Shown piece by piece: positions 9,241 through 45,951 of a DNA stretch of 64,000 nt. Source of the stretch: Chaetoderma sp. LZ-2023a (lineage: Eukaryota > Mollusca > Caudofoveata > Chaetodermatida > Chaetodermatidae); assembly GCA_034401795.1 (NCBI GenBank), contig CM067365.1:16855166-16919165 (forward strand), in the 5' to 3' direction. Position numbers and translations under genes: made by a program. Each line of letters begins with the position of its first letter. Position 1 is the first letter of the stretch. The notes beneath the pieces were generated by a model. The model was given only the letters and a program-made list of their open reading frames with translations. It was not told where the DNA came from and did not search any database.

Positions 9241-9354
9241 TCAGTTATTCGCTAAACAAATATTTAGATTTTCATGATCTATCGTATCATAAAAGTAATA
9301 ACCTTTTAGTAGTAAAATTTTCTTAAGAAAATTTTAATATTTACTAATTGAATG

Positions 9355-9482
9355 TTCATTTACAGGCGAAGAGAATACAATTTTTGAAAATGTATCACTG
9401 GAATGACTGGCTTGGTTATCGAGCTAGTTATTCCAGTGTTAAATTTTCCAAAATTGTATTCTCTTGGACTGTAAATGGACAT
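9355..9482. repeat. Foldback MITE, family B (best copy)
   Basis: A palindrome of about 126 bp. The left arm has TTCATTTACAGGCGAAGAGA and CACTGGAATGACTGGCT. The right arm has AGCTAGTTATTCCAGTG and TCTCTTGGACTGTAAATGGA. Its right end lies about 80 bp from the downstream end of acid phosphatase exon 9559-9645. Related copies are at 9121, 11057, 14635, 23575 and 24185. Confidence 0.8.
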
Positions 9483-9558
9483 TCCACAAGATCATAGCAG
9501 AGGCCAGTTTTGGACGGTATGACCATTGAAGTATTAAAGACGACACAAATCTCTGTAC

Positions 9559-14571: not shown

Positions 14572-14629
14572 TTTAACCATTTAACACTAAAGCTGGACAA
14601 TACAGTTTTTGCAGTGATGTTGCACCTAT

Positions 14630-14735
14630 TTTTTTAAATTTACGACTGGAATGACTGGCTCAATAACCAAGCCAGTCTTTCCAGTGGTAACCTTTCTAAA
14701 ATAATCTCACGATCTACAAATGGACATTTATGAGG
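14630..14735. repeat. Foldback MITE, family B (short form)
   Basis: The core GACTGGAATGACTGGCTCAA is followed by its inverted copy AGCCAGTCTTTCCAGTGG; the right end reads TCTACAAATGGACA. Confidence 0.65.
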
Positions 14736-19237: not shown

Positions 19238-19393
19238 CATCATCATCATTTTACGAGGCATAAGCCCGTGGCTTGTTATTGCCTCCGGAAACTGTGTTGG
19301 TATTATATTACTTTATTTAGTTACAATTGTTTATTTGTTTGGTTGGCATTATTCAAGACCCTGGTTGACTTAGGGAGGTGCTGTGGTGCAGAT
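19238..19393 (-). mobile_element. CR1-like LINE 3' end (distal piece, beyond the DIRS insertion)
   Basis: An (ATC)4-type tail (19238-19250) followed by TTTTACGAGGCATAAGCC is the minus-strand 3' end also seen at 57317 and 61063. The piece ends at GCTGTGGTGCAGAT. The continuation expected from 61286-61300 (CAGATGGGTGTTTCC) is found at 28905, on the other side of the DIRS element. Confidence 0.8.
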
Positions 19394-19429
19394 TGAAGGA
19401 AATTTCAATTTCCCTTTCTCCGAGATCTA

Positions 19430-19588
19430 ACAATACTCACCATTCTATTACTTCTGATACAAGCTATCCTGAATAGCTGGCCCTAGGACTATAGATTTAG
19501 TAAGCTTTACCGACTCCTGAAACCGGGTACTCGGCTCACAACTGCCGAGTACCCATTTGCTATGAAGCTCATATTGTTTGCATAGCCA
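19430..19588. repeat. DIRS 1 left inverted terminal repeat
   Basis: This matches the reverse complement of 28735-28890 with few differences. It includes AATACTCACCATTCTATTAC and an internal hairpin GGGTACTCGG/CCGAGTACCC. Confidence 0.92.
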
Positions 19589-19640
19589 CCAAACAAGAGA
19601 TACCGATGGCTTGCCTCCGTGGGGCTGGGAGGCTCGGTCC

Positions 19641-19738
19641 GTAATAGAATGGTGAGTATTGTTAGATCTCGGAGAAATGGAAATTTAAATTTCCTTCATT
19701 CTCCTTCGATCAATACTCACCATTCTATTACTTCTGAT
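19641..19738. repeat. DIRS 1 internal complementary region
   Basis: The left half (GTAATAGAATGGTGAGTATT ... AAATTTCCTTCA) is the reverse complement of the element's left terminus. The right half (TTCTCCTTCGATCAATACTC...) is the reverse complement of its right terminus. In the DIRS replication model this region templates circle closure. Confidence 0.9.
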
Positions 19739-20239
19739 ATACACCAGATTTAGACAGTAACCTGGTGGGAAGGGGCAAGCCATAAATGCTAATTTTGCCC
19801 CTTGGAGAAAGAGCTAGACTTAAACCTGATTAATGGAGACCTAAAAGGACCATCAAGTTAACGGAACCGAATCACATTCGCATCACTGCCCACCCACCCT
19901 TTTTCTACTAAGAAAAGGGAGAGAACTCACGAACATGCATCTTGCGTGAAACATAAATATGCCAAGAGGGTTAACTGCTCTTTGCATATATTAGCCTGGG
20001 AATGAGCATGAATATATAAGATGAATGAACATGATATTTAAACATAATACAGAAAACTCTCAATCTTGAATTACCTCATGATATTTGGATTTCAGATGTG
20101 GAGCCTCCAACCATTCACTCGTCCAGCCATCAGTGACACAACCTGGTTGACATCCTCTCGCTCGACCATGTCTGCTTCTAAATTCTTTTTTACAAATGCC
20201 AAAAAAGGGAGAAGAGCAGTGTGGTCGCATAACTATCAT

Positions 20240-21290
20240 TTCAAAACAGCTAAAGCGAGTGGATTGGCGGAGTCTGACACATCCCTCATATAGTAATCCG
20301 TGAAAGAGGACTCACAGCAAAATTGTGTAAAGGGCAGTCGAGGAGGCTATTCCTCTAACATCGTGTGCCCTTGTGCATTGCACCTGGTGCCCAGTCGCAA
20401 TCACATGGGTAGTCTGAATGCATTCGACTAGCCAACGAGAGATAGAATCCATGGATGCGGCGCCATATGGCTTCTTATGGCAGATCCACAGATGTCTATC
20501 ATTTGACCGTAACGAGTCTGTCCGTCTTTTGTACTTAGTCAAAGCACTGACTGGGCACCAGACACTGGCATCACGATCAAACCTAGTTAGTTCCGGTATA
20601 ATGATCGGTTTACCGGGATATCTCAAAGATTGATTCTTTGACATAAACTCTGCTCTTGGCAGTAGACGCAGACCCTCTCCGGAGACAATAAATCGGTCCC
20701 TCGCTGCTGAAAGTGCATGGATCTCACTGCGCCTTCTAGCTGAGGAAGCCCCCAATATAGAAAAAATGCCTTTAGAGTCAAATGCTTTAGACTAGCCGAA
20801 CGCAACGGTTCGAAAGGGTGCTTGGCCAGTACATTAAGCACTAAAGATAGACTCCAGGCTGGAATGACTACCGGTTGTATCGGTCGGAGATTTCTCATTC
20901 CCTTCACCATCACATTCAACTGGGCCACCTCTGGACTATCCCTGTTGGCTAGACAAGGGATAACTGATGCCAAAGCTGACTTGTATCCAGCAATTGTGAG
21001 AGGGGCTAGTCCTGAAATGAACAGCTCACAGACAAAGTCTGCTATTTGCTGAATAGTGGATTGAAAGGTATCAATACCCTTTCCTTCACACCAGTCTGCA
21101 AATCTGTTAACCTTGTTGTTATATGACTTGAAGGTTAACCTCCTCGCAGCTGCAATGAAATTTGCAGCTTGTCGAGAAAAGCCTTCCGATGTGGAACGTT
21201 GTTTGATAACATCCACGCAGTCAATTTGAACATTTCGGGACGCTTGTGTAGGAAGCGTCCCTTGGCCTAGGAGATTCTGTTCGGAATCTC
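20240..21290 (-). pseudogene. DIRS 1 tyrosine recombinase
   Basis: The N-terminal core-binding part (about 20760-21290) reads AARRLTFKSYNNKVNRFADW, then SGLAPLTIAGYKSAL. The catalytic part continues after a frame slip near 20755. ARRRSEIHAL holds the first catalytic Arg, RAHDVRGIASS is the H-x-x-R box, and FTDYYMRDV holds the tyrosine nucleophile in a third frame (about 20280-20300). All expected catalytic residues of the family are visible, but two frame slips and a short loss between ALYTILL and SSFTDYY inactivate it. In intact relatives this enzyme inserts the closed-circle DNA intermediate. Confidence 0.88.
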
Positions 21291-21720
21291 GGGTAACTGC
21301 ACTGGATTGTCCACCAGCAGATCTAGATGATCCATGAACCACGCCCTGCTGGGCCAAAATGGTGCTATTAGCAGGAACAGGCACGGTTCCTCCCTGATCT
21401 TCACTAATATCTTCGGTAGAAGAATGGTGGGTGGGTACACGTAAGCGTGCATCCCTCTCCAGCTTATCTCCAGAGCATCTGTATCGATGGCATTTGGATC
21501 TGGAATCGGCGCGACATAAGTCATGATTTGAGCATTTTCCTTTGTGGCGAACAAGTCCATGTTGGGGTTTCCCCAATGCTCGAAGATCCTGTGAAGAACT
21601 GGAGGGTTGAGAGACCATTCTGTTCGCAGAATTCTCTGTCTCCGAGACAAAGCATCCGCCAGAATGTTCAATCGCCCAGGAATGTGAGCTGCTTTCAAAA
21701 CAACCGAGCAATTCCTGCAC
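21267..21720 (-). pseudogene. DIRS 1 RNase H end and connector
   Basis: Directly after the hAT insertion the minus strand resumes with IQWCRNCSVVLKAAHIPGRL and NILADALSR. This is the DIRS RNase H ending 'A-x-H-I-P-G-x-x-N-x-x-A-D-x-L-S-R'. It is followed by NPNMDLFATKEN, APFWPSRAWF and the LP-containing linker before the recombinase. The first residues are encoded on the far side of the hAT (LIQ at about 25668-25675), so excising the hAT with one target copy restores a continuous frame. Confidence 0.88.
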
Positions 21721-21721
21721 C

Positions 21722-21729
21722 ATTGAATC
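21722..21729. repeat. hAT target-site duplication, left copy
   Basis: ATTGAATC, identical to 25660-25667. Confidence 0.95.
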
Positions 21730-22010
21730 CAGGGTTGGGTTTTGAACAGTCCAAAACTAACTTTGAGCAGACATTGTCCAAAACCTGTCTAAAACATGTC
21801 TTAAATGGTTTAAACCAGTCCAAAACTCCAAAACTATGTTGGACATATCACCATACTCTTATGCATCATAATCCTATTAAAAAATAACAAGAAATCAGAG
21901 ATTGCATCAAAAGCACTATATTAAACAAATCCATTTATTATATGAGTTATTATTACATTTTTATCAAATACATACAATTAAAACTTAAAAGGCTTAATTA
22001 GGTTTAATTA

Positions 22011-23475
22011 GTAGTCCAAATCAGACAGCCCTCTCAACATCCTGTAGCAAAACATTAGCTTTGACGCTTTCTCTACTCCAAGCCTATTACGGATTTTAGT
22101 GTGGATATAGCTAAAATTGCTAAAAATTCTCTCAATCGATGCTGATGATGCTGGTGCTTCAAGCAGCTGAATAGCCATATCAATAAAATCACCTGGCACA
22201 CCTAGTGTTTTCAAGGCCTTCCACCATGTCACTGAAGGCACTTGAACTGCAGCATCACAGAAATATGATGCAGGAAATGGGCTGCTTTTAGCCTGGTATG
22301 CAATAAATATTGCTATAAAGCTAGGGTTCTTAGCTATTATCCAATTGTTCACTTCTTCAAACTGTTTTGCTACCAGCATCTCACCCTGAAACTTTGGATG
22401 TGATGTGTATGCGACAAGATGCTCTGGCAGGATTGCCTTGCTGAAACGTGCTAACAGAGTTTTCTTTTGTGGTTCTAGCAGAGTGTTGTTTAGTAATTCA
22501 AGCCAAACATGGCATGCATCGGCTAGTGTTGATGTGTCACTCTGACATGTGTCAATTGCTATTGAAATTGGCCGAAGTTGTTCGGCTAAGTCTCTTGCAT
22601 TTCTAAACAGGTTAAAGTCCATTATCTTCTTGACAATAGAATTATCTATTTCTCCTTCATGGTCTTGTACAATTTTCATGAAATGTGGACGGTTGTAAAT
22701 GAAGGAGTCAATACACATGAGTTGACTCTTCCATCTAGTGTCACAAGGAAGCTGTGGCTTAACACTACCAGTACATTCCGAGAGCCAGGATAGTGGCTTG
22801 TGGTGATTCCTGAAATATTTTTGAATCTCAACTACATGCTTAATTAGCGTATCCGGTGTTATGTCTTGCCCTAGTAAGTTTAGCCAGTGTGCAGAACAGC
22901 CATAGACAATAAGATCATTGTCATCAGCCTGCAAACCATCACGCATTTTTTCCATGTTCTTTGCATTATCTGTGACAATGCTCTTAACTGTTTTGTCTCT
23001 TGACACTTCACCGTACAGTTTTCAGCACTTTTAGTCATAGAACCAGTGTCAAAGCTGTTTAGGAAGAAGCTCTTTCCTTCTACTTGCAAGCAGGATGCTA
23101 TGATAGGTTCATTGTGAATGTTACTCCACCCATCCTCCACTAATGTTGCTGTCTTGCCATCAAGAATCACCTTCATATCCTCTGTCACCTGATCAGTTTA
23201 CGTGAAGGGGGTTTATATCCTGGGCGTAGCATACTAACAACTTTTATGAACTGCGGATGTTCAGCCATTGAAAATGGAAGGTTACAAGCATAAAACAACC
23301 TCGCGACTTCTATATCTATTGCTGACTTCATCGCTGAGGTGGTAGTGATACAATGTCGGCTCAGATCGGGTTGAATTGAGAATTGAACTGGACAGGTTGG
23401 TGAGGGTGGTGCTGATTGTGATGGCAATTCTTCTCTTAGTCGCTTTGTGCATGGTGCAGCTGATGGTTTGTCCAG
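22011..23475 (-). pseudogene. hAT transposase, main exon
   Basis: It begins after acceptor TTTGTTTCAG at 23476-23477 with LDKPSAAPCTKRLREELP. A DUF659-like core follows: ATLVEDGWSNIHNEPI, then IVTDNAKNMEKMR and GCSAHWLNLLGQDI, where D in the TDNA block belongs to the catalytic triad by family analogy. The C-terminal dimerisation domain reads LEAPASSASIERIFSNFS, then KIRNRLGVEKASKL. The stop is near 22008. Frame slips near 23190 and 23003 break it into three parts. BED finger exon 24580-24791 is its upstream partner. The element probably no longer makes transposase. Confidence 0.88.
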
Positions 23476-24579
23476 CTGAAACAAAGAAAAGGGATATTAC
23501 ATGTGCTATATAAGCCAAATGTAGATATACACCCTACCTGGTCCAAGCCATTTGGGGACAAGATATGATAATCTTTTTAAAAATTTACATTGAAATGACT
23601 GGCATTGCAACAAAATCAGTCATTCCTATGTTGAATTTCCAAAAGTAATTAATTTTATGTCATAATTCAATACATTTAAAATTTGGAATGGATAGAGTTA
23701 AAGATAGACCACCCTTCTGTCAAATAAATGCATGTTTTTATTTATTTTCAAAACTTTGGGACTTGCTGAATATTAGTTTGACTGTTTGCATCAGTCTATC
23801 TGAAGGGTGTTAGTGTGCTATGCCAAATTGTTTTCATAATATTACTGTAGTAAAGGTATTCAGGCAAGAGTATTTCTGAAAACCCTGGGTTGCAGAAAGT
23901 ATAGGGTTAAGCAGATCACTGTGTGTTATTTCTAATCTTAAGCCAGCGCCCTCACAGGCCAATTATCACACCTATACCATTGAATTGTAAAGAGGCTCAG
24001 CATGTGATTGTGGTTATCAGAGATTATCAGACCTGGCTCTATTACTAGCATGGCAAAGAGAATAATTAACTCAGGTATCTGAACTAAAGCTGAGACATCC
24101 TGTTGATAACCCCTATGCTGCCAAGACAATTACAGTGAATAGTAACCGTACCTACATTGTACATTATGACTTTTAAACACAACTTAGCACAAATTTTTGA
24201 AAATTTTTCACTGAAATGACTGGCTTAGTAAAAGCGGCAGTCATCTCACGAGTAAATTTGTTTTCCAGTCAAATTAGTTTCAAAATATTCTGCAGTTTTC
24301 CCGCATAGTGTCCTTGAAAATGATAGCTGAGGAATTCATCGGTGAAAGGGTTAAGGCATGTATTAGATATATTGGACTCCTAGCACTCCAATGTCAACAA
24401 AAAACATTTTTCAAATAAAATTAAAAGATAAACTGTTTTTTTATTTTCAACAAATTTGTCATCGCCCAACAAAATTGTTGAAAAATGAAAATCAGTTTCC
24501 TTGGTATAGTCACAATAAAATATAGAATTTTTAATTATTGACATTAGAGGGCAAGGGGGTAAGCATTAATTTTATTTAC

Positions 24580-24791
24580 CTTCAAAATCTTGATGTCTTT
24601 GCTGATATGTGTGTCTGCACTGTCTGTATCAGCCTGTTCAACAGGACTTTCAGTAGACTTCTCATAGTGTATTTTCCTCCTTGCTACCTTGTTGACAACT
24701 GTGTACTCACACTCTCTACACATAGCCATTTGTTTGCCATTAATCTTAACTTCCAAAAAGTGCTTCCAAATTGGATCCTTAGGCCTACCAC
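24580..24791 (-). CDS. hAT transposase, BED-type zinc finger exon
   Basis: The acceptor TTTCAAAG is at 24792-24793 and the donor GTAAAT at 24574-24579. It encodes GRPKDPIWKHFLEV, then CRECEYTVVNKVARRKIH, which is the BED finger pattern (W-x-x-F, C-x2-C, H) used for DNA binding. The phase-1 start implies another upstream exon that supplies the methionine. It is about 1.1 kb from the main exon at 22011-23475. A second copy at 41628-41839 is nearly identical. Confidence 0.8.
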
Positions 24792-25659
24792 CTTTGAAAT
24801 ACATATTAACTATTTCAAATACCATCAACACATAAATATTCAGGACAACAGAAGAATTCAAAGATTAATGTAGCACAAGGATATCTTTTTACTAATTGTC
24901 TAATTGATATCTAGCATTAACTGAGGATAGATGAAAACATGAAGAATATAATTTATATTCTATCAGCTTAATGCCTTAATCCCAAATTTGCATAAGATCT
25001 TATGTAAACATAGCTAATGTGTGTACTGAGTAGTGCATTCCAAAAATAGCCTTAGAGAGCAAGGGTCATCAGTTAATTGTTGAAACAACATCTTAGCAGA
25101 CTATATTTTCTCTATGAGTTTAAGATTCTTCCATAGGCCATGAACATTTTGCAAGTATTAGATTTAGACACAGAGACAGTTCTCAATAATATAAACATCT
25201 AGCTGTACATAGGTAGTCTAATATGTTTACATTATTGATTAAATAGGGTTTCTGTGGGTTTAACACAACTGGTCGAAATATACAGAGTTAAAACATTTAA
25301 GACAAACAAAAGTTGAAAAAAATTAACCCATGGATTATAGAAAGAAGCAAATAAGACTCCTAATTTATTGAAATCATATGTGTCCTTTTAGATTATTATT
25401 ATTATTATATAGCAATAAAGTATCCAAAAATACATGTAGATAACCATCCATCAAAATGTACATGTACCTGTATGTGTCTAAATGCTATACAGTTGTTTTA
25501 AGAAAATTACATTTCCGAAAAATATTTTTTATACCAATATTTTAGGTTTTGGACAGTTTTGGACAATTTAAGGTGTCCAAAACCTATTTTGGGCGGACGG
25601 TTTAAACCATGGTTTAAACCGCGGTTTAAACCACTAGTGTCCAAAACTTGCCAACCCTG

Positions 25660-25667
25660 ATTGAATC
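25660..25667. repeat. hAT target-site duplication, right copy
   Basis: ATTGAATC, identical to 21722-21729. Confidence 0.95.
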
Positions 25668-26330
25668 AAGTGCCACACTTTGATACATAGTGTGGGTGAC
25701 TTGGTCCCGCCTTGGCGATTTATGTATGATACCACACTTGATTCTGAAACGCAAATCTCAGAAACCTGTGACAACTCCTGTTCATTGGAATGTGGAAATA
25801 TGCATCTTTCAGATCGATCGATACACACCACATTCCCTTCCTCAATCCTGCCATTACCGACCACGGAGTTTCCATCTGAAACCGAGGCGTATGGATAAAC
25901 CAATTTAATGGCCTGAGATTGAGTATGGGTCTTCATCCCCCTGTGCTCTTGGGGACAAGGAATATGTTTGAATAGAAGCCTGGAGTGTTCCGGTTTGCTG
26001 GTTTTATTGCTCCCGTCAGAAGCAAACCAGACACTTCGTTTTGAATGGCTTCCAACATGTCTGGTTCCATTGGTACGGGTGTCCAGACAGGTGCCAAAGA
26101 CTGATTCTGTGGTGGAAAATCCCACCACTCCGGCATGTACCCCTGGGATAACCATCCCAGGACCAGACTGTCTGACGTCACACCTCGCCACGCCTGGACG
26201 AAATGCATGAGCCTTCCACCCACTATAGACGCATCGACGCCTAATGCGGGTGTCTGGCTCACGATCCGCTCCCCCCCTCTCTTGACGAGAGAGAGAGTGA
26301 GAACCATTTTGGTCTTGGCTTGGCCGGTCT
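25668..26330 (-). pseudogene. DIRS 1 reverse transcriptase with internal deletion
   Basis: Minus-strand motifs in order are RLMHFVQAWRGVTSD, EVSGLLLTGAIKPANRN and GFYSNIFLVPKSTGG. A TGA replaces the expected Trp, then come RPILNLRPLNWFIHTPRFQM and SIDLKDAYFHIPM in a neighbouring frame, and RFLRFAFQ. The sequence then jumps to SYINRQGGTKSPTLCIKVWH, which belongs to RNase H. The RT palm with the YxDD box and most of RNase H are therefore deleted (roughly 200 or more residues). The same defect is present in copy 2 (42716-43386), so it predates the duplication. Confidence 0.88.
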
Positions 26331-26396
26331 AACTGGCACCGCTGTTCCTGTCGCACAGGTGCGGTCCAGGCAGATACGAAGGGAGCCCTCGTACCC

Positions 26397-28547
26397 TCAG
26401 GTACGATCCGCTCCCTTCTTTCTGCCCTTAGAGGACTTACCCTTCCTCTTGCCCTTCCCGCCTCTCGGGCGATCAGGAGCAACATTGGGGAGGGTAGGGG
26501 CATCCACAACCTTCTCGGCCGTCTTCGCCGGAGGCGGCTGAAAAGACCCAATAGAAGCAGAAGCAGCACTAGGCGTAAGTTTTGCCTTGCTTTTGTGCTT
26601 CTTCTGCTTCTTAGAAGGTTGTCCGGTTAGCGGCTTGGCTACAGCTCCTAGTGTGTGCGACTGACGCGCTAGCTCCAGCTGTAGATTAACCGCCAACCAA
26701 TTCTGCGCGATGTTGGCCGTGTCTTCTAAGATGGCCCACATTTGGCCACCAAAGATGCTAGGGCCGGTAAGGGGCATCCCAAGAAGACGGCAGTAGCTGG
26801 ACGCATATGGTCAAGGACCATCTGCCTCCTAGACTTCGTCACACATGCTTGCACCCTTGCCAATGCGTCCATAGACAAGGCCGTCATTAACACATGAAAG
26901 CGCCACATGTGGCACAGGGTGGCCTGCCCCCGCTTCAGCCCACACTGACTGAAGAAGGCGATAGGAATGGTTGACAGCACTCATTGCTGCCCTCACCCCT
27001 TCATCGCATAGGGACAGGACTTCGTCATGGTGTACCTGAGACTTGTCCACCAGCGCCGAGGCGGGGCCACCCGCTCCAGCACTCTAGACACCCAGCGGTC
27101 AGCCTTGGTGACCATTGGGACAACACCATACCTGTCATATTCACCCCGTGGAATCCGACACCTCACCTGCACCTCCCTGGAGGCTGCAGGAAGCTGACCC
27201 TTGGTCAGGAGTTGTTTGCTATAAATAGCATCCAATAACTCCATAAACCTTGGATCCAGTCCAATGGACTGGATCTGGGTGGCGGGCAAGATACCCATCC
27301 TAATCGATGCCACCGATGGACGGGGTGCATCCTCCTCGGCCGTGGTCGAAACCACAGACGAGTCTACCCTGGCTAGCCAAGCCAGAGCCTGTGACCAGTC
27401 TGTCTCTGAGGAGGACACTCCCGTGAACACGTCACCCGTTCACAGCTCTACCAGCAACGGCCTCCCAGCTAGGAGCCATTGCTGATATGCCAGGAACTCC
27501 AGTACCGTACGGTTCTGCTGCCATCCCATGAAAAACACCAGTCCATGGAGTAGGCCTGCACGGAAAAAACGTGCAGACCCGTAACGGTTGGAGAACCGTG
27601 GCCAAACACGGGCGCCAACGGCATCCCATGCCTGACCGCCGGACCAGGCGAGATAGGTGAGTACCACGCCTGGCCAGCCACACCCGTCACTGAGTCGGTT
27701 GGTGGCAAACCAACCATCACGGGACCGGTGCCCGGTACCGGAGTGGTCTCAACCACGGCCGGAGCTGCTGCTCTGGCTTGTGCCAAGCCAGACAGATGGA
27801 GGATGGTTCCGTCCAGGATGGAATCGACCTCCATGCTCTCCACCCGCAGCATCTCAGGCCACAGCAATCTCTCCTCCTCATCTTCAGACCCCGAAGAGTC
27901 GTCACTAGATGACGAAACCGTGGAGCTGTCCTGGCGGATGGCTCCCATGCCTGACGGACAGACCACTGCTACCGGACCACCCAGAGGTGGTCGCAGAGAG
28001 ACAGAGCCCATCAGGCCGGAGCCTGACGGGACTGCCATGGAGCCATACGAGACGGCTCCCTCGGTGGCCAGTCCAGAATCCTGTCCAAGGACAGGGTCTG
28101 AATCAAACACGGAAAGAGACTGCCCTACAACTTTTGGCAGCAGGGACAACACCAGCATGGGCAGAACGCTATGCAAGAAGCCTTGCATAGCAGGACCAAA
28201 CCACGCCGGCGGTGCCATCTCCACCACCTCCAGTTGCAGACGTGGAACACCCCCAAGGGCCGAAACAGACGCTCCACGATTTGCTTTCGGACCGCCTGAC
28301 CCCGCGTCAGACCCTGCCAAGTCCTTCTGGCAAGGAACTTAACCATCATGTCGGACGACCACACTGCACAAACGTTACACCTACTGTCAAGATTACATTT
28401 GGTACAACAGAAACAGACATGGTCCTTGAATAGAACCCTCACGAATTTATGGCACCCGTCACATGCCAGGGGATCAATCTGGCATATTTCGTTGTTAACA
28501 CACGTCCCAGATTCGGGGTCAGAAATTGGAACATGCGACACACACAA
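26397..28547 (-). pseudogene. DIRS 1 ORF1 (gag-like)
   Basis: In minus-strand order the first part is a cysteine-rich segment (about 28370-28466) with CDGCHKF...DHVCFCCTKC...CNVC spacing, apparently a zinc-binding domain. Next comes an acidic/serine stretch (DSSTVSSSSDDSSGSEDEEE, about 27880). A helical segment (ALAWLARVDSS, MELLDAIYSKQLLTKGQLP) lies at 26993-27430, and a lysine-rich tail (KKQKKHKSKAK, GKGKRKGKSSKGRKKG) at 26397-26777 is suited to nucleic-acid binding. Several frame changes separate the parts. The first codon is not fixed; the open stretch starts near 28547. It precedes RT, as gag-like ORFs do in DIRS. Confidence 0.7.
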
Positions 28548-28734
28548 AATTTTGAAGACCTAAGTCTTTTAACTATGGAATAACATGGAATTATACAACC
28601 TGGTTATGATCGGCTCCATCCATGGTAATCCAATATAATCCTTAGAGAGCGCACAAAGCTATCACAAATACACAGAAAAAGACTTAGATTTTAACTTAAG
28701 ACTCCAACTGCACAAAAAAGTATGTAGCTCTTGT

Positions 28735-28890
28735 TGCTATGCAAACAAGAATGTGCTTCATGGCAAACGGGTACTCGGCAGTTGGGAGCCGAGTACCCGG
28801 TTCCAGGAGTCGGTAAAGCTTACTAAGTCTATAGTCCTAGGGCCAGCTATTCAGGATAGCTTGTATCAGAAGTAATAGAATGGTGAGTAT
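28735..28890. repeat. DIRS 1 right inverted terminal repeat
   Basis: This is the reverse complement of 19430-19588. It includes the hairpin GGGTACTCGG...CCGAGTACCC at 28770-28799 and CAGAAGTAATAGAATGGTGA near the end. Confidence 0.92.
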
Positions 28891-28904
28891 TGATTGAAGG
28901 AGAA

Positions 28905-29930
28905 GGGTGTTCCCTGCGTCAGCTGCGGTGTGCCGCCTACGCTCATGGTTACACCCTTCTGCGCCTAGCATTTGGGTATATTTCTAGATTGTCTTATTAT
29001 TATATATCTATTAGTTGGTTATGTTATGATCATATATTATGTCACTTAGGTGCATATCTAGTTTTCATTTAAACACGCCAAGCATGGGTGCCTCAACCTC
29101 AACAGAAGGGAGTCAGTTCCATGTGTTAATAATTTGTTTTGGGAAAAAATGTCTATGAATTTCTTTTCTGCTGCGTTTAGTGTTGAGCTTGAATGTGTGA
29201 CCTCTAGTATGTGTGTTATTTGATCTGTCAAAGAATGTTTTTTTGTCAATGTTGTAATCATCATGGATAAGTTTGTATGTTTCGATTAAGTCTCCTCTAA
29301 GCCTTCTGTATTTTAGTGACATGAGATTCAAAGTCTTTAACCTGTCTGTGTAGCAGTAGTCTTTCAAATGGGTAACAAGTTTAGTGGCTCTGCGCTGGAC
29401 CCTTTTGATTATACAAGATTGTCTTTTAAAACGAGGGGACCATATGTAGTTACACTATTCCAAAATTGGTCGGACTAGTGATGTGAATAACAGGGTGTTT
29501 TCATCTATGTAATTGAAGGTCCTGTTAATTAGACAAACTATGCTGTTAGCCTTTGATACAGTTGCATTAATATGGGTATCAAAGGAGATGTTTTCATCTA
29601 TGTGTACGCCAAGATCTTTTTCACTTGTGGACGGTATGATTTCAATGCTTTGTGACGGGCATGTAGTGTCTGTCATATAATACCAGGTCCTAGGATTGTT
29701 TGAACCAAAGTGTATCACATGTGTTTTGTCTGTATTAAAGTGTAATTGCCAAATCTGAGACCAATTACATACATTATCTATATTGTCTTGAAGGTTCATG
29801 GTGTTAGGGTTACCAAACAGTTTTGTATCGTTCGCAAAGATCTTCCAAGGGCAGGTTATGGAATCGGGTAGATCGTTTATGTACCCACACCAGTCACCCA
29901 CCCAATAGCCTACAAAATCTGGCGCTATCC
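28905..29930 (-). pseudogene. CR1-like LINE A, RT C-terminal half and 3' UTR
   Basis: The minus strand reads YINDLPDSI, IFANDTKLFG (the catalytic F-A-D-D box reads F-A-N-D), HFNTDKTHVIHFG, SEKDLGVHIDENISFDTHIN, SLVRPILE. After a frame break it reads [20 protein letters not shown] and the C-terminal F-F-x-x-x-I-I-N-T-W-N. This is the RT tail shared by CR1/L2-like LINEs. The endonuclease and RT N-terminus are absent (5' truncation near 29930). The 3' UTR begins at about 29057 and is cut at 28905 by the DIRS element, resuming at 19393. A near-identical copy is at 45952-46977. Confidence 0.85.
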
Positions 29931-30205
29931 ACTCTTTATACTTATCATTACATTGCCATATAGAAGAATTTTTGCACTTTCCCATGATCGCGACGTTTGT
30001 TTAACTCAATCTACCATACAAACATTATATAATTATAATTGCGCGGACGTTACTTTCTTGATGGCTATCTAAACACAACTGATTCAATGTTTACAAATTC
30101 GTAAAACAATGGCTTCTTAAAATTGACAAGTTCAGACACGTATTACTTAAGCCGAAGTGTGTTCCCGGTATGGTTAGCGCAGTGTTGCCCACAACATCTG
30201 ATTTT

Positions 30206-30300
30206 TGGGCGTTCCAAGGACCCCACACTCAAATTTGGGGGTCCCACTGTAAAATCTGGGGGTTCCATGGGATCCTCATCTGAAATATGGGCGTCCCATG
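30206..30300. repeat. Short G-rich minisatellite
   Basis: About four degenerate 25-bp units of the type AAATTTGGGGGTCCCACTGT / AAAATCTGGGGGTTCCATGG. Confidence 0.6.
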
Positions 30301-31590
30301 TTTTTTTCTTAAAATAAACACAACACATTGATCTAATTATAAAGCACTTTCTTAAACATGTTGAAAGCACTAGTTATGACATTGTGTAAATAATTTTAAT
30401 GTGTATATAGAGAATATTACCTATGCATAGTTTATTAACCTTAAATTGATCTATTGAAATGGCCCTTGTATATTTAACTAATAACATTTGAACTGCATGT
30501 CAATAAACAATAACTTAAAGCACTGTACTTGTTTGTTGTCTGATAAACCAACCAACCTACATTGACAACCTTGTATGATTAACATTTCCAAAGGCCACTA
30601 CATTAGTAATTAGCAAAGACCACTGCATTAGTTTTTCTATAAAACCATAACTTGATTTTAGACAAATTGAAAAATTACGAGTATCTGGGGTGAGTTTGCT
30701 CAAGGACGACTTGACCTACTTCGATATAATGCGCGCGTATTTTTTATAATGTAACTGGAATGACTAAATATAGTGGAATACATAGGCTAAGATCAGACAA
30801 AACAATAATTTATCAAAAATAATCTGTATAAATCAGATTAAACTGCGTAATTAGTGAAAATATATCAGCCAATAACCGGATATGTCTAATTCATAGGGAG
30901 TAACTATGTAACGTGATTGCTGATTGGTTGAAGCATAGATAATGCATTAGCGTGTATCCAATAAGGACGCTTGTATCGGGGAGCTTTGAGCTTTACACTG
31001 TTCGGGAAAAATCAATATTTTAACGTATGCCTACCTGTAGATCGACGATATCATTGAACATCGCTGCTGGGATGAGCTTTTTAGTTGAGAAATTGGGAAC
31101 ACCTAACGATCGAGTATTGCTAAACATTATAAACACTAATCCATCAGTCAATCAATCAGCCGCTATTGCTAAATAAAAGACGGCTTATAGCGCGTATTGA
31201 TACCGTTATTCAAACAGCAATACACCGCCACTAATCTGTCAAATGACCATTCAAATGTAAAAGATACCACAATATCTTCCGTATATTCCTTCATCCATTT
31301 AGATATTTTGATAAGTAAATAGAAAAAAATATTTTGCCTGTAAGTCGTTGCTGCTTTAGGCAAGTAGGCATGCGCAAATTAATTTCAAAATATTCAGCAG
31401 ATTAGTGATAACAACGTTGTGATCTGTCCAATGTTCTGAGCAGTGAAAGGGTTAAGACGCCCAAACACGTTTGTATACGCTTGATCAGTTGTACTGGATT
31501 TCTCAAGCATGAGTTCCTCTAGAGGAAGGTTCTGCTGTTATCCAATCAAATACTGACACGTCACGCTGATGTTTAGCACAACAGACAGAA
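30300..31590. other. No gene recognised
   Basis: AT-rich sequence. A partial family A MITE (TTCAAAATATTCAGCAG, ending GTGAAAGGGTTAAG) lies at about 31330-31455. Confidence 0.5.
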
Positions 31591-31592
31591 AC

Positions 31593-31806
31593 ATGGCGGG
31601 TATTTTTGCAATTTGTAGGCCAAACAAGGCCGCTAACATCGGGCTTGTAAACTCATTATTTATAAAAATTAGATCAAATGGAATACTAAGGATGATTTGT
31701 GGATTGTGTTTACAATTAAATGTGGTGGTTGAATCTGATTTATGGGCACTAACAACTTTGAGTTGTGCAAGAAAACATACAACAAATCATAGTCTTAAAC
31801 AACACA
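31593..31806 (+). CDS. Possible first exon of an unidentified host gene
   Basis: The ATG sits in a good context (AGAAACATGGCGGG). The frame stays open for 71 codons to a strong donor, ACA|GTAAGT (phase 1). The peptide starts MAGIFAICRPNKAANIGLVN and is rich in Arg/Lys and hydrophobic residues with few acids, which would fit a mitochondrial presequence; this is inference only. No following exon was recognised downstream and no family is recognised. The same exon is intact in the second block at 48640-48853. It could be a chance open frame. Confidence 0.35.
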
Positions 31807-32559
31807 GTAAGTTCATTTTTATTGAACACACAATACATTAGGTATATTTTTTAAAGTAAAAACATGCACAAATAACTATACACACACGATAATATAATCG
31901 ATAATTAAGCACACGCAACGTTACCAGTTTCCGTTACACTTTTCACTGCGTTCCTCGTGCGTCCTCGGGGACAGAGATGGTTAATTTCTATGCGTTCCTC
32001 TGCCATTTTTATGCGTATATACGCACAAAAGGATGCATAAGGGCAACTCTGGGTTAGCGTTAACAGCGCAGTTTAGCATACACCGGGAACCAATCTGATG
32101 TTGCCGACCCTAAACTCTCGCGCAATAATGGCAAGATGTTGCGAGAATTCGGGTTTGATGATGTTTTACACAAGCCGAAGTGTGTTCCCGGTATGGTTAA
32201 ACATGCAGTTTAGCTTATACCGGAAACTAAACGGCGAGATTTTGCAAGACTTTGTGCTTGATGACGAAAATGTCCTGCCGGGAGAATTGCAATTGCCGAT
32301 ATTTTAATTTTCCATACCTTTTCTATAGCGGAAACGCAAAATATTGATTTTCCATACTTTTTCAAGCCCTGGAAAAGGTTTTCTTAATTTTCCATACTTT
32401 TTCCTGTGTACGAACCCTGTAAGCCGTACATTCTCATTTTCTTTAGAACTCTTTTGTGTGGTCCTGTAGCGAAAGCATTGGAAAAATCTAAGTATAATGC
32501 ATCTATAGGTTTGTTTTCATCTACATTGGATGTTATAGTTTCCATGTACTCCAGTTTAC

Positions 32560-33045
32560 GGTATTATCATTGGTGACAGACTCTCCTTTGCTCAAATTAT
32601 AAACATTCACCATCTCACTTGTGTTGAAATTACAAGATTACGTCACCCTAGAAAACATATGACACTGTATTCAGATTACATCTGCAGGCTAGATAGTGGA
32701 TATTTTTAAGCAGTATCATCGGATAATGGGTTTTCGAGGGTGTAAGTACATTTTCGCCAATTTAATATAACAGTAGGAATTTTATCAACAAATTTTGCCA
32801 ATTTCGTAACTAGCAAACATTCACTGAAATAAAACATGCATAAAAAAAAACAAAAAACCTAATATAAACTTACTGCTTTTAAATATTCACTACCTGGTCT
32901 ACAGATGTAATCTCAATATTGCGTTATGTGTTTTCGAGGGTGATGTAATTGTGTAATTTCAACTCTAGTGAGGCGGTGTATTGATGTCATTTTTATGATT
33001 TGAGCAAGGGAGAGTCTGTTACCGACAATAATGCCATAGACGGGT
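32560..33045. repeat. Long foldback element (~485 bp, ~160-bp arms)
   Basis: Left arm phrases (GACAGACTCTCCTTTGCTCA, GTTGAAATTACAAGATTACG, AGATTACATCTGCAGGCTAG) return inverted in the right arm (TGAGCAAGGGAGAGTCTGTT, TAATTGTGTAATTTCAAC, CTGGTCTACAGATGTAATCT). The loop (about 32725-32840) is homologous to the reverse complement of 38905-39040. Confidence 0.8.
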
Positions 33046-34013
33046 CTGATACAAACACACAACTTAATTTATAGTTGTAAATCCAGATCAGGTTATATGC
33101 CGCTTTTCGTGATAACTGGGTAGCAGCAAATTTCAACCAAAGCATTAAAAAAGTTAAAATCTTTCAGTTTTTCGTTTGGAAATTGGTAAATGTGGTATTG
33201 AAAATGAACATAAGTGTTTAATCTAGCCATTGTCTCCTTTTTAGTTTGTGGCGTACAAGAAATATGCATAGATTGACATATTTGAACACACAAATATTTT
33301 CCAAAACAGCTGATCATGTCGCCATCTTGCCAGAAAAATTAATATTCATGAATTCCCAACCAATCAGACGCGTCAATCTTATAGCGCGTGATACGGTGAT
33401 GCCAATAACGGGTAATGAGCTTAGTACTCGTATATTAGATACAGGTACGATTCTACAAATTCCTCTCGTTCGCTCGCGATCTATCACAGTAAACGATTCC
33501 TATTGGAGACGGCGCTACGAAAAAATGTCTGATGCTATAGAATCTTAGTGTAAAACATTCGCGTTCACTTCTTAAATTGCTGATTGCAACCAGCAATGCT
33601 ACATAGCATAAAATTTGCCATTTATTCGTTGTCAACGCTGAGAAACCTGGTAAGTGTTCGGAAAATAAAAACAAATTATTGAAATTTATCCCCTGTTTAA
33701 GACTATATGCTCGGCCTCAACGTGGCGCAGGGGTGTAACCCACTGGGTGTCAATCCATACATTTGGAGGGGCTAACCAGAGCATTATGCACAACGCTAAT
33801 GAAACAACACTTGGAGATCGAATCAACCGAAATGGTGCTCGCCCTGTGAGGATCCGCCAGGCAGGTGCAGCGCCGGGCTCCACGCCTCGAAGGAGCCCAC
33901 CCTCAGCTACTGGAGGTTCCATCAACTCGTCTTGTGGAGCCAGGGGATGAGGATGGAGAGCTACTGGCCAACCGAAAGAGAAGACCAACCCCAAATAGAA
34001 CCCCAGTATCAAC

Positions 34014-34730
34014 ATCATGCACTGGAATGCAGAAGGGGTTACCAACAAGAAATCAGAGCTCGAACAGTTCCTGTACGAAAATAACATTGATATCTGCTGC
34101 ATCCAAGAGACACACCTGCAAGAAGGAAAACCATTTAAGATCAGAGGTTACCAGATTTTCCGGTGTGATCGAAGAGGAAGAAAGAAAGGTGGGGTGATCA
34201 CCTTGGTCCGAAACAGCGTGAACGCCAGCCAGATCAAAACCTTTATGGAAGAGGCAGAATATATCAAGATAACAACCAGCAACTCTGTGATTGACATTGT
34301 CAATTATTACTGCCCTAATGACAAGAATCTCTCACTTGACACAATCCAGGTCCCGGACTGCCACTTCCTCATTGCGGGAGACTTTAATAGCCAGTCCCAG
34401 AGCTGGGGATACAGAACACTTGATAAATGAGGAGAAGACATTGAAGCATGGCAAGATGAAAAGCACCTTTTACTTGTCAACGATCCCACAGATCAGCCTA
34501 CCTTCTACTCGCGCCGGTGGCACTCGACAACAATGCCGGACTTGGCATTTTGTACAGAAGACATTCACAGAAACCTCAGTAGAGTGGTCGGATCGCAGTT
34601 AGGAGGGAAGCGACCACCGCCCAGTCATCCTCTCTCTTTCTGGAAGTATTTCGACAAGTTCACCTCAACATCCAAGGTGGAACTACAAAAAGGCAAACTG
34701 GAGTCTGTTCGGCATTTGTTCCAATGAGCT
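34014..34730 (+). pseudogene. LINE B AP-like endonuclease
   Basis: Motifs in order are MHWNAEGVTNKKSEL, ICCIQETHLQ (catalytic Glu), FLIAGDFNSQSQSWG (D-x-N), PDLAFCT, and the expected S-D-H-R-P site near 34605. Here an extra G in GGAGGGAAGCGACC shifts the frame at S-D-H, while copy 2 (51061-51777) keeps GGSDHRPVI. An in-frame TGA after LDK (34428-34430) is shared by both copies. In intact elements this domain nicks the target for priming. Confidence 0.85.
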
Positions 34731-35137
34731 TACCTAAAATATAGCAGTAGAAGGGAGAAACATCAACAATGTGGTCAAGAAATTTAATTCAAGTATCCTC
34801 AAGGCTGCCAACGAAGCGATTCCTCGAGGGTTCAGGAAAACTACCGCCCCTACTGGACAACAGAACTGCAAGCAGCACATGATAAACTAGACAAGGCCAG
34901 AGAAGATGCAGAGGGTAATCCCTGTCATGAAAACCACTTCACGCTACAACAAACTAAAGCCAGGTATCTAAAGACCAAGCTGGAGGCCAAAGAAGAAGCT
35001 GGAGGGAAAAGACGGCAGGGTTTAATTTAGAGAGAGACACCACAAAGCTATAGAGACTGACTAAAGCACTGAATGATGAGGGTGTCGGGGGAGAGAAGAT
35101 TGCTCTTGAAGAAGATGGACAAACACTGACAGGAAAG

Positions 35138-36366
35138 ATGGCTGCAGATGCCTTTGCGAAGGCATATGCAAAAGAAAGCAACATTTCTATACCACGAATG
35201 CATCAAAAAGAGGTTAGAAAAGAGCAAAAGGAAAGAACAGACACCAACACTCATGATGCAATGAAAGTTGACATTAGTTTAGCAGAACTGAAGAAGGCTG
35301 TCCGCCAATTGAAGAAGAAGAAATCTCCCGGGCCAGATGGCATTACGAATGAAATGATCCAACAACTTGGTAATGCATCTCTCCGCAAATTGCTAGACAT
35401 CTTTAATCTCAGTTGGACCAATGGAGAGGTTCCTCCGTGCTGGAAAGAAGCCAGAATGACTCCTATTCTGAAAAAAGGGAAGAACAAGACGAAAGTGCTG
35501 AGCTACCGTCCTATCAGTCTTACAAGCTGCATATGCAGGACCATGGAGCGCATCATCAACCAGCGGTTGCAGTGGTACCTGGAGTCGGAGAACATCATAG
35601 TTTCAGAGCAGGCCGGCTTCAGAAGATACAGGAGCACAGAAGATCAAACAACACATCTTGCACAGGTCATAGAGGACACTTTTCAAGCCAAGAAGGTGAT
35701 GCTGGCTGCCTTTATCGATCTGCAGAAGGCATTTGACAAGGTGTGGAAGGATGGCCTCCTCATGAAGCTCCCGCGCACAGGCATCAGTGGCAACATGTTC
35801 TGATGGACCAAGTCATACCTACAGAATCGCAGAGCTAGGGTGCTGGTGGATGGACAATCTGGACAGAATGTATTGCTGAGACAAGGGGTACCACAAGGCG
35901 GAGTATTATCACCAACTCTGTAGGCTGCCCAATGGGATCCAAGCAGCCCTCTATGCAGATGACCTCGTACTCTGGTGCACCGAGGAGTACACAACGACTG
36001 CCAGGTACAGAATGCAGCTCGTCTTGGACAGAATCACAGCTTGGGCCAATCGCTGGTGTATTACCATCAACAAAGAAAAATCATCAGCCATGCTATTCTC
36101 ACTGTCCACCAAAAACAAGGTTGGCAATCTGACACTGGGCGGTACTCCACTCGGGTACGAGGACCAGCAGACATACCTGGGAGTCACCTATGACAAAAGA
36201 TTAACATGGAAGGAGCACATCCAGAACGCAGAGGCAAAGGCCAGAAGAAAGCTAAACATCATGAGGAAGCTGGCAGGAACAAAGTGGGGTGCCAATGAAA
36301 GGATCCCCAAGACCATCTACCCAGGTGCCGTACGACCACACCTTGAGTATGGATCCAGCTCATGGA
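35138..36366 (+). pseudogene. LINE B reverse transcriptase
   Basis: Motifs are LKKKKSPGPDGITNEMI, MTPILKKGK, SYRPISLTSC, EQAGFRRYRSTEDQ and AFIDLQKAFDKVW. A TGA stop after SGNMF (35801-35803) follows, then QGVPQGGVLSPTL. A short loss comes next, then ALYADDLVLWCTEEY (catalytic YADD), WCITINKEKSSAMLF, QTYLGVTYDKRLTWKEHI, and the post-RT stretch up to EYGSSSW, where the SINE is inserted. The frame resumes at 37665 with WMTAAKSHQQNLDRVQNQTL and stops at the microsatellite. Both stops are shared with copy 2. Confidence 0.88.
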
Positions 36367-36367
36367 T

Positions 36368-37664
36368 CTTCTTCTTCTTTTCGTTCGCTGATCATACCGC
36401 CAGTCCTGTAAGTGACTATCGACATGATCATAAGCGTTAAGTGCGTGGATCCATGGTTTATTAGAGTGCGCCGTGCGGCCTGGAACCTCCATCTTCAGCA
36501 CTCGAGGTTTCTGTCAGGGTTACCTCTAGGGCTGCGCGATATACCGATACCATATTTAAAACCGATATCCTACACTGACGGTGTCATAACCGATTATAAA
36601 AAATAAATATCGAAAAACCGAATATGAACATATTTTCGGTTTTTCGTATCAGGATTATTAAAAATAAAAGATACTAACAAGCATGAAAAGGCGTAATGAA
36701 TAATAATGGCCATACTTTCCATTAAGCTACGTTCAGGGCAACTAATAATTGAACGTGGCCCCAATTGCGCATATTGTGTAACTCAATGTAACTCGCTGTG
36801 CGCCGAGAGAAATCAAGCAGCGAATTAATTAAATAAATATCCACTCGTCTTTTCTCTGGTAGTCTCAGATAAATTTGCAATATAAAACACAATACTAAGA
36901 CGGGAATTTGTCATTGAAATTTGTATCGGGGAAAACATAAACAACGGCATCCATTTTATTTACGTCACCGGCTAATTAACATAATGCAAAGTCGTCCCAA
37001 CACTAAATCGCCCGATTGCATCAAAATCTCGCCAATAACTATAATGCTGATTAGGATATAATTTTAAATAAAATTATTACTCAAACCGTTTTTAAAACGT
37101 TATCTTCTATACACAATATCATATTAACTTATGAAATTCGCGATCGCAATATTACAGTTAATATTTTCTTCAAGGCATGATTTTGTCCTCGGGTCGAATT
37201 GGAAATGAAAGAAGAAAGGGAGATAATTACATCATAATTAATTACAATCGCGTGATTTACGTCTTTTCGCAACCTGTTTTGCTGATTTATGATTAATTTT
37301 GACAAAATAAACGATGTTTATTTAACTGTGCGTACTATTTAGGCGGTCTAATTAATAATTTCACTCCCGCGATGATGGATATTATAAGGTATATTAAGCT
37401 TTAAAGGCGTAAAACGTTACGAATGTATCAGGGCATGAAAATACGTTCTGTTTTCGTGCTAATTTTTATCATTTAAATTTTTTGTTTCATGTCCATAAAA
37501 CCGATATTCGGTTAAAACCGATATGAAAAGTCATATCGAAACCGATATGGCTGTAAGCCAAACCGCGCAGCCCTAGTTACCTCACCCGTACCTGCTTTAG
37601 TCGCCTCTTACAACACGCAGAGGATACGGAAGGTGTATTCTAAGCCCCACCTACAGGGCATCGT
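36368..37664 (-). mobile_element. SINE-like insertion with 9-bp target duplication (itself interrupted)
   Basis: It is flanked by CTCATGGAT at 36359-36367 and 37665-37673; removing it rejoins the LINE B frame. Without the hAT inside, it is about 240 bp. On the minus strand it ends in GAACGAAAAGAAGAAGAAG, a GAA-type tail. The 5' part (CCTCTGCGTGTTGTAAGAGG) resembles a short conserved string I remember as common in mollusc SINEs; that resemblance is unverified. No clear tRNA promoter is seen. Confidence 0.7.
36527..37575. mobile_element. Non-autonomous hAT-type element, 1049 bp
   Basis: The ends are TAGGGCTGCGCG and CGCGCAGCCCTA with an 8-bp target duplication GTTACCTC (36519-36526 and 37576-37583). 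The subterminal region is rich in ATACCGATA / AACCGATAT. There is no transposase. The interior is related to 3113-5455 and 16130-16726. Confidence 0.9.
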
Positions 37665-37784
37665 CTCATGGATGACAGCAGCTAAATCTCATCAACAGAA
37701 CCTCGACAGAGTACAAAACCAGACACTGCGCATCATCACTGGTGGAATGAGATCAACACCATAGAAAAAATGGAGCAGACAGCA

Positions 37785-37819
37785 ATTATTATTATTATAT
37801 TATTTTATTTATAATCACA

Positions 37820-37866
<47 letters not shown>

Positions 37867-38212
37867 TCTTCTTCTTATTATTATTATTATTTTTTTTAAA
37901 CTTTTTTAACATCAAATTATTCTTATTTGTTGTTGTTGTTCTTCTTCTTCTTAATAGTAAAAAATTATTATGAATTCTTCTTCTTATTATTATTATTATT
38001 ACTATTTATTTTTATATTTTTTAACATCAGATTATTCTTATTTATTATACTTCTTCTTCTTCTTATTATTATATATTTTTTTAAATCAAATTATTCTTAT
38101 TTCTTCTTCATCTTCTTATTATTATTTTGTATTCGTATTATTCTTTTTAAAACGAAATCTTTTGATAATTTATTTGTATTCTTATTATTATTCTTATTTT
38201 ATTATCTAATGC
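37785..38212. repeat. (TTA)n/(TTC)n microsatellite tract at the LINE B 3' end
   Basis: About 430 bp of mixed ATT and CTT triplets start exactly where LINE B stops. This fits growth from the LINE's simple-repeat tail. Polyphenylalanine/leucine open frames over it are artefacts. Confidence 0.9.
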
Positions 38213-38904
38213 AACGCAATACGGGATCTGTGTTTTAGCGCGGACTCGGTGGTGACGTGAGTCGTCAACCGAAGCGAGAAGATACGAAAAAACTAAATGT
38301 ACGTGCAGACAAACGTGCTTGTTGTTTACTTTGAATAAAATGAAGACTGAATGGTTTAAAGAGAATAATTCACTAAACTATTTATGTCAATCTGATGTTG
38401 CCGATATATTTTTATTGACTGCATAGTTCGTTTCGCACATATATCCAGTTTTCGTGTAAAAAACGCGTGTTAAATATGGACCGTTTCGGCGGAAAATCCA
38501 GACAGGAATCGATAGGCAGATGTTAGAGACGCAGTAGTAGACTGCGGCTCTTCATAGAGACTAAGTAACTGGCAGATGTCGCTAGACGCAAAAACTGGAT
38601 TGATTTGTATAATTTTCTTACGAGTTATCAGAATTTTTATCATGGGTCAAAAAAGTATTAGTGAAATTACATGTTTTTCACTACACTGACATCAAAATGT
38701 ATAAACTAATAACTTGTACTACGCGCATCTTTTAAAATTTACACTTGTGGTGTAAAAATACTGTATCTATTTAATGACACATGATTTGTTGACATCGCCT
38801 AAGCGACGAGCGCATGAGATGTCAAAAGTATGTACCCCCGAAATCACATGACCCTCGAAAACACCTTACCGGACGATACATTTATTTGATGGTTTATTTT
38901 AATT

Positions 38905-39040
38905 TAATGCACGTTTTATTTCAGGGAATGTTTGCAAGTTACAAAATTGACAGCATTGTTTGATCAAATTCCTACTCTTATATTAAATATGCGAAAATGT
39001 GCTTACAGCCGCGAAAACCCATTATCCAATATATATGTGG
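38905..39040. repeat. Inverted relative of the 32725-32840 loop
   Basis: Its reverse complement shares GGATAATGGGTTTTCG, TTTAATATAA(C/G)AGTAGGAATTT and CCTGAAATAAAAC(G/A)TGCAT with the loop of the foldback at 32560-33045. Confidence 0.75.
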
Positions 39041-39861
39041 ATACTTAATTAATCGAAAACTGGTAACGAGTAGAAATTAAACGTGTTGATGTTTAAACTA
39101 ATTTAAATTTGTACCATATGAAGCAATCTGAGTTTTAATTCAATTGTACAAGAAATGTGAAGAAATAGTAGCTGTAGATAAAAGGCTTGAAGTAGAATAT
39201 TTAATCGATCCGAAAGCGAAAATAAATTCATTTTTGTTCTTGTCTTCTATAGTAGTTCCCGTCCATGCGACCTCATCATCATCATCATCATCTGGTACGA
39301 TGTTGGAGGCCTGTTAGACATATTGCCAATCTATAACGATCAATAACCTCAAAGTGATTTACACTATGGGGTTGCGCGTGATATACTGCTGGACTGTCGT
39401 ATGCTTAATGCTTGAGAGATATCCGTATCAGGTTGTTGTTTTATTGCTCTTTTTGCCTTTTTTTAAAATTTTCTTCTTATTTTTTAAGGAAATTCCCAGG
39501 TGATGACAATTAGTATGCAACGTCTTGCATTTTGGCTAATATGTACAAATGTACATTTATTTACAAGAGATGATAGATTGGTAAGGCAACCCACCGAGCC
39601 CAGGACAATTTCTGGTGGTGTAACCAACGACTGAATCCAAGTGGAAAACATGTGCAGTTTTGCTCATCAGTTCTGCTGCTTATATGTATGTACATTTTTA
39701 TAGCGGTTTGATTTAGTTGTGCCAAGATCCACCGAGGGTCAGGGGGAATGCTGTTAGGTTACTGCGGTTATCCATCGAATTTGCAGCACCCACACACCCA
39801 CAGTTAGTCCTTGCTTTCGGCACAAAAAAATGTCACCTGCATGTTATTGAGCAGGCTTTTG

Positions 39862-39957
39862 TTGGACTGGTAGCTCAGTGGCATACCTAGCCCGTTTCTC
39901 ACTCCAAAAGTGTGCTGTAACTAGGATTGTAGGGTAGAACCCACCTCATGTAACCAC
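39862..39957 (+). repeat. tRNA-derived SINE head (degenerate)
   Basis: GGACTGGTAGCTCAGTGGC is a textbook RNA polymerase III A box (TRGYNNAGTGG). About 55 bases downstream, GGGTAGAACCC is a decayed B box. The arms do not fold into a full tRNA, so I call it a SINE head and not a tRNA gene. Confidence 0.6.
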
Positions 39958-40032
39958 ATGTGATAATTTGGCGAACGAATTGTCCTATGTGTCCAGATCA
40001 TCGCCTTCACAATTCTAACATCGTCGTGTCGT

Positions 40033-40532
40033 NNNNNNNNNNNNNNNNNNNNNNNNNNNNNNNNNNNNNNNNNNNNNNNNNNNNNNNNNNNNNNNNNNNN
40101 NNNNNNNNNNNNNNNNNNNNNNNNNNNNNNNNNNNNNNNNNNNNNNNNNNNNNNNNNNNNNNNNNNNNNNNNNNNNNNNNNNNNNNNNNNNNNNNNNNNN
40201 NNNNNNNNNNNNNNNNNNNNNNNNNNNNNNNNNNNNNNNNNNNNNNNNNNNNNNNNNNNNNNNNNNNNNNNNNNNNNNNNNNNNNNNNNNNNNNNNNNNN
40301 NNNNNNNNNNNNNNNNNNNNNNNNNNNNNNNNNNNNNNNNNNNNNNNNNNNNNNNNNNNNNNNNNNNNNNNNNNNNNNNNNNNNNNNNNNNNNNNNNNNN
40401 NNNNNNNNNNNNNNNNNNNNNNNNNNNNNNNNNNNNNNNNNNNNNNNNNNNNNNNNNNNNNNNNNNNNNNNNNNNNNNNNNNNNNNNNNNNNNNNNNNNN
40501 NNNNNNNNNNNNNNNNNNNNNNNNNNNNNNNN
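40033..40532. other. Assembly gap, exactly 500 N
   Basis: A round-number run of N between the two copies of the duplicated block. Its size is probably a placeholder. Confidence 0.98.
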
Positions 40533-42705: not shown

Positions 42706-42715
42706 ATTGAATCAA

Positions 42716-43386: not shown

Positions 43387-43443
43387 CGCTGTTCCTGTCG
43401 CACAGGTGCGGTCCAGGCAGATACGAAGGGAGCCCTCGTACCC

Positions 43444-45937: not shown

Positions 45938-45951
45938 TGATTGAAGGAGAA

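Follow-up and report, generated by a model that had tools for sequence, protein, structure and literature searches.

A three-level nest of a LINE, a DIRS1-like retrotransposon and a hAT transposon in the genome of the caudofoveate mollusc Chaetoderma sp. LZ-2023a

In nested transposable elements generally, the younger element is inserted in the older one and the order of events is read from the nesting. In the CR1 clade of long interspersed nuclear elements (LINEs), target duplication around the inserted copy is variable. According to PMC3266345, DIRS elements form a circle and integrate without duplication, and the DIRS1-like retrotransposons of molluscs include AcaDIRS1 and LgDIRS1 (Table 3). 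Here we describe a locus in a 64,000-nucleotide stretch of the Chaetoderma sp. LZ-2023a genome (GenBank assembly GCA_034401795.1, contig CM067365.1, forward-strand positions 16,855,166 to 16,919,165; the whole stretch is called the window and numbered from its first letter). At this locus a LINE fragment is interrupted by a DIRS1-like retrotransposon, itself interrupted by a hAT DNA transposon. The nest is real, and we consider it to reflect, with a probability of about 94%, three successive, independent transpositions, LINE first, then DIRS1-like and later hAT.

The original prediction had proposed the same minus-strand nest in the same order, and three lines of evidence bear this out: the structure of the elements, their same-genome relatives and, for two of the three layers, divergence. 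Its statement that every junction is resolvable holds for the four inner junctions, located at 19393/19394 and 28904/28905 (DIRS) and at 21729/21730 and 25659/25660 (hAT); the outer ends of the LINE are without a target duplication and its 5' edge is approximate.

The middle layer is a DIRS1-like retrotransposon on the minus strand (19394-28904), 5573 bases long once the hAT and one copy of its target are removed. It begins at 19394 (TGAAGGAAATTT) and ends at 28904 (GGAGAA), termini common to other copies in the genome, the left edge being fixed by 41 distinct left flanks. Inverted terminal repeats lie at 19431-19589 and 28733-28892, the left repeat pairing with 28892-28733 at 94.4% over 160 columns. 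An internal complementary region (ICR; 19641-19739), whose reverse complement reads as the joined ends (GGAGAA-TGAAGG), can pair with the two outer ends of the element (95% over 62 nt and 98% over 41 nt), and the element thus provides a record of its own termini, as had been predicted. There is no target duplication: across the site, the joined LINE flanks agree at every base with two LINE copies that lack the insertion.

A genome search with the left end of this element gave 4122 candidates, of which 40 were scored and twenty fetched at 7.6 kb each. Among the scored candidates, the best other copies were 96-97% identical at the left end and one further copy 91%. The coding capacity of the family is best seen in the relative L039, which encodes a reverse transcriptase (RT) with a YIDD motif (RVT_1, E value 5.2e-18) and a ribonuclease H (RNase H; RT_RNaseH, 0.0029, under the cut-off), both largely deleted from the window copy. 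L039 also carries the N-domain of a tyrosine recombinase above the cut-off (Phage_int_SAM_1, 5.1e-5), a match found under the cut-off in open reading frames of three other matching relatives and in the window (0.023); the catalytic domain of the recombinase was not matched by Pfam in any of the proteins tested. In the window copy, remains of the methyltransferase-like and recombinase coding region occupy 20312-21788 (minus strand), with Dam, the methyltransferase-like domain, also below its cut-off (0.003, 17.7 bits versus 28.1). Two of the fetched relatives, L026 (C11:47411600-47419200) and L027 (C11:46459600-46467200), lie about 0.95 Mb from each other in opposite orientations and are identical over the 7.4 kb compared, flanks included, as would follow from an inverted duplication of very recent date or from a fault in the assembly.

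The innermost element is a hAT DNA transposon of 3930 bp on the minus strand (21730-25659). Its ends, CAGGGTTGG and CCAACCCTG, form short terminal inverted repeats, and the window copy is flanked on both sides by ATTGAATC (21722-21729 and 25660-25667, the right copy being found also at 42706 in the other contig), the perfect duplication from which its ends had been predicted. This duplication is not due to chance, because a perfect 8-base repeat stands exactly at the matching inverted ends of a 3.9 kb element (4^-8 per site). The main coding part of the transposase (22008-23496, minus strand) contains the dimerisation domain (Dimer_Tnp_hAT in Pfam, 1.4e-5, 25.2 bits versus a cut-off of 21.4), and the coding parts match the Hermes transposase in the PDB (2.9e-5). 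Further along lies a zinc-finger, BED-like exon (24544-24864, minus strand), matched by zf-BED under the Pfam cut-off (0.0042, 17.5 bits versus 20.6); judging from splice-like bases, an intron probably separates it from the remaining coding part.

From 1055 candidates in the genome search for this element, 40 were scored over the left 866 bases and, besides the window copy, 39 were 97-99% identical to it. Nine copies were fetched, all of which start at the identical base at the left end. The window copy carries private deletions of 28 bases at 22988 and 31 bases at 23191, and the missing bases are present in all nine; the transposase frame is broken because of these deletions. Two of the nine, L062 and L064, switch to unrelated DNA at or near the intron edge, and are either truncated or interrupted by another insertion.

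The intron also contains two fragments, 23558-23645 and 24179-24260, of a short palindromic repeat family (CACTGGAATGACTGGCT...) represented in the window at 9350-9484 and 14628-14702 too, its members being about 70-84% alike. That these fragments were inserted into this particular hAT copy, making a fourth level of the nest, is suggested by their likeness of about 70-75% to the palindromic repeats at 9350-9484 and 14628-14702. The first of them, however, falls within an uninterrupted alignment in seven of the nine fetched copies, L062 and L064 departing earlier, into unrelated DNA. We consider a fourth level very unlikely and reject it at 23558-23645, where the fragment came with the hAT family (present in 7/9 fetched copies, the other two not reaching it); the rejection is limited to this fragment, as the fetched copies end before 24179-24260.

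When the flanks of the hAT are joined, the DIRS coding sequence is restored and its translation reads KVWHLIQ-WCRNCSVVLKAAHIPGRLN, as compared with KVWHLIQCCRNYSVVLKAAHIPGRLN in L039, which has no interruption at this site. LIQ-WCRNC, the RNase H reading that the original prediction had expected upon excision, is recovered in this way and is the counterpart of LIQCCRNY in L039. The joined flanks align without a break in 16 of the 20 fetched DIRS relatives, the other four (L024, L035, L036 and L037) having no match there.

The outermost layer is a LINE fragment, also on the minus strand, divided by the DIRS element. Its 3' end, which carries a short tail, (CAT)n on the plus strand, lies to the left (19238-19393), where it aligns with the 3' regions of other LINEs of the window (57302 and 61059), likewise on this side of the DIRS site. 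The rest of the fragment (28905-~29885, 5' edge approximate), identified by translation, corresponds to the C-terminal part of the RT with one in-frame stop. At the protein level it shares 38% and 36% identity with two further LINE pieces of the window, and a second copy of it, from the other contig, is found at 45948-47037. Without the DIRS element, the LINE flanks read GTGCAGAT-GGGTGTTCCC. The empty site that had been indicated at 61286-61300 belongs to a contiguous copy at 61273-61355 that runs uninterrupted across the junction (83%, 84 bases), and a second one was found at 57688-57752 (80%, 65 bases). The label CR1-like was not confirmed, as Pfam assigned no family to the LINE fragments at E values up to 0.1 (one fragment) or up to 1 (two fragments).

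Divergence from same-genome relatives agrees with the order given by the nesting. In a FastTree tree of 14 DIRS sequences (~2.3 kb), the terminal branch of the window copy measured 0.0316 substitutions per site, the other branches ranging from 0.0189 to 0.032 with one outlier of 0.146; L021, L024, L025, L031, L035 and L038 were left out of this tree because of second left ends, gaps or incompleteness, and L026 because its sequence is the same as that of L027. For the window hAT, a tree of 10 sequences of up to 2312 bases gave a terminal branch of 0.0066, with the others at 0.0032-0.0083. Measured by terminal branch, the age of the hAT is about one fifth that of the DIRS element, as the nesting demands, and the comparison of divergences that had been proposed as a check, run on these two layers, fits the predicted order. 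The locus records an older DIRS wave, with about 3% private divergence, and then a recent hAT burst, whose scored copies are 97-99% alike.

These data are consistent with the following sequence of events. A 5'-truncated LINE copy was first at the locus. Next, a DIRS1-like element entered the 3' region of this copy, between CAGAT and GGGTG, and left no target duplication; following the published model, the DIRS tyrosine recombinase would have joined a circular copy to the target, the circle junction being recorded in the ICR. Later, a hAT transposase pasted the 3.9 kb transposon into the RNase H region of the DIRS element, duplicating ATTGAATC.

The window contains an assembly gap of 500 N (40033-40532), and the sequence that follows it, 40533-57025, is a second copy of 23486-40016 (99.35% identical), in which the right part of the nest appears again. 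Neither this gap with its 16.5 kb repeat nor the two DIRS deletions and the two deletions in the hAT transposase had been noted in the original prediction. The second copy begins at the first base past the N run and the first one stops 16 bases short of it. Over aligned bases, mismatches between the copies amount to 6/2172 in the hAT, 4/3245 in the DIRS element, 1/981 in the LINE and 31/10053 in the flank. Such differences, 0.1-0.3% with 24 gap openings, would be possible for a young tandem duplication including part of the nest, but both edges of the repeat coincide with the gap, which is not expected of a real duplication, and we regard this explanation as highly improbable. The repeat probably consists of overlapping contig ends, perhaps two alleles, set in a row, and looks like an assembly error rather than biology. 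Taken at face value, it would mislead gene or repeat counts.

On this reading, the right end of the hAT, the right end of the DIRS element and the inner LINE junction have been assembled twice; the left-hand junctions have not. This bears on the possibility that the nest itself is a misassembly, in which unrelated repeat copies were joined by chance. The window does hold an assembly fault, the 500-N gap with 16.5 kb repeated, and two of the junctions are present in a single contig only. However, the joins coincide with element ends common to other copies in the genome, the 8-base duplication is perfect, the empty sites agree on both sides, and the right parts of the hAT and the DIRS element and the LINE pieces are found again in the overlapping contig. 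We regard a chance joining as extremely improbable.

Several points weigh against three successive transpositions. The left-hand junctions, at 19393 and 21729, are covered by one contig only. The LINE flanks (80 and 100 bases compared) share no direct word of at least 7 bases, a weak test given the approximate 5' edge. The LINE copies with empty sites, 80-83% identical, are relatives and not members of the same subfamily. Dating relied on the relatives that best matched the window copy, a choice that shortens the DIRS and the hAT estimates alike, and divergence dating covers these two layers, the age of the LINE being one that we infer. Three successive insertions, LINE, DIRS1-like and hAT, nevertheless remain our reading of the locus.

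The window DIRS copy has lost two segments, as judged from its relatives. The first scar, at 25731/25732 and about 64 bases from the hAT, marks the loss of the later half of the RT, including YIDD, and of the greater part of the RNase H. Twenty relatives were tested; 507-1038 extra bases were present in all 14 that aligned on both sides, two of which (L026 and L027) are identical to each other, while a further three aligned on a single side and the last three did not align here. The counterpart of this loss in L039 (3035-3831) contains YIDD along with the later part of RVT_1 and the bulk of the RNase H, and an earlier RT motif (3886-3912 in L039) has been kept in the window copy. At the second scar (28465-28468), 566-862 extra bases were found in the 10/10 relatives, from 20 tested, that aligned on both sides. 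No indels distinguish the two contig copies at either scar. For the timing of the deletions we infer rather than observe. Because the DIRS element has lost two segments and the hAT has frame-breaking deletions, self-encoded proteins are unlikely to mobilise either of them.

The abundance of DIRS copies makes them a good sample for studying target choice by DIRS recombinases. We compared 41 distinct left flanks, from 39 fetched loci and the window, counting inner elements and excluding circle-junction matches inside elements. GA was present at positions -3 and -2 in 28 of them and missing from the other 13, GA making up 6.2% of the dinucleotides of the window. A stood at -2 in 39/41, and the last base was T in 19, A in 14 and C in 8, a pattern that resembles the right end of the element, GGAGAA. 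Right ends were found for ten copies (9/20 relatives plus the window), and no fixed motif follows them, both sides of the site being known for these 10 copies only.

A second left end inside a DIRS element was detected in three of the 20 loci, L021 (C13), L031 (C6) and L038 (C14). In L031 and L038 the inner left end falls at the identical internal base, yet the two inner elements differ from each other by 9.1% and the two outer ones by 4.6%. Judged from the left ends of the inner elements, this favours independent insertions at a preferred site over the copying of a single composite. In L021, the flank of the inner element is at odds with GA. A tentative explanation, to which we give rather less than even odds, is that the DIRS recombinase accepts a degenerate (A)GA(T/A/C) resembling the element's own right end, GGAGAA, instead of requiring strict identity with its 3-base circle junction; copies hold such sites, and the element would thus insert repeatedly into its own kind, on two occasions at an identical internal base.

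Elsewhere in the window, open frames on the minus strand at 62496-63656 resemble, by eye, Ty3/gypsy-type RT and RNase H sequences, and 1-225 and 3872-4934 are tandem arrays whose units measure about 40 and about 151 bases, respectively.

The elements of this nest are of well-known kinds, local examples of ordinary nested transposons, and the nesting logic is the same as in nested transposable elements in general, with no difference. A nest this clean and checkable can serve to calibrate the order of transposon activity in a 2.4 Gb genome. Like hAT transposons of the Hermes type, the innermost element has the 8-base duplication, CAGGGTTGG inverted ends, a dimerisation domain and a BED-like finger; there is no essential difference, only the frame of the window copy being broken. 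The LINE fragment resembles, by eye, CR1-like or jockey-like LINEs in its C-terminal RT motifs, 5' truncation and short tandem 3' tail, and differs in that no tool assigned a clade and no target duplication was found. As regards the DIRS element, the left flank is looser, GA(T/A/C), than the 3-base junction that serves as target in the published model as set out in PMC3266345, and the window copy is deleted in the RT and RNase H. On the other hand, it has in common with these two molluscan elements, in the description given by the same source (PMC3266345), the inverted terminal repeats, an ICR joining both ends and the absence of target duplication, together with RT, RNase H and recombinase coding parts and a putative methyltransferase-like one, here as seen in its relatives.

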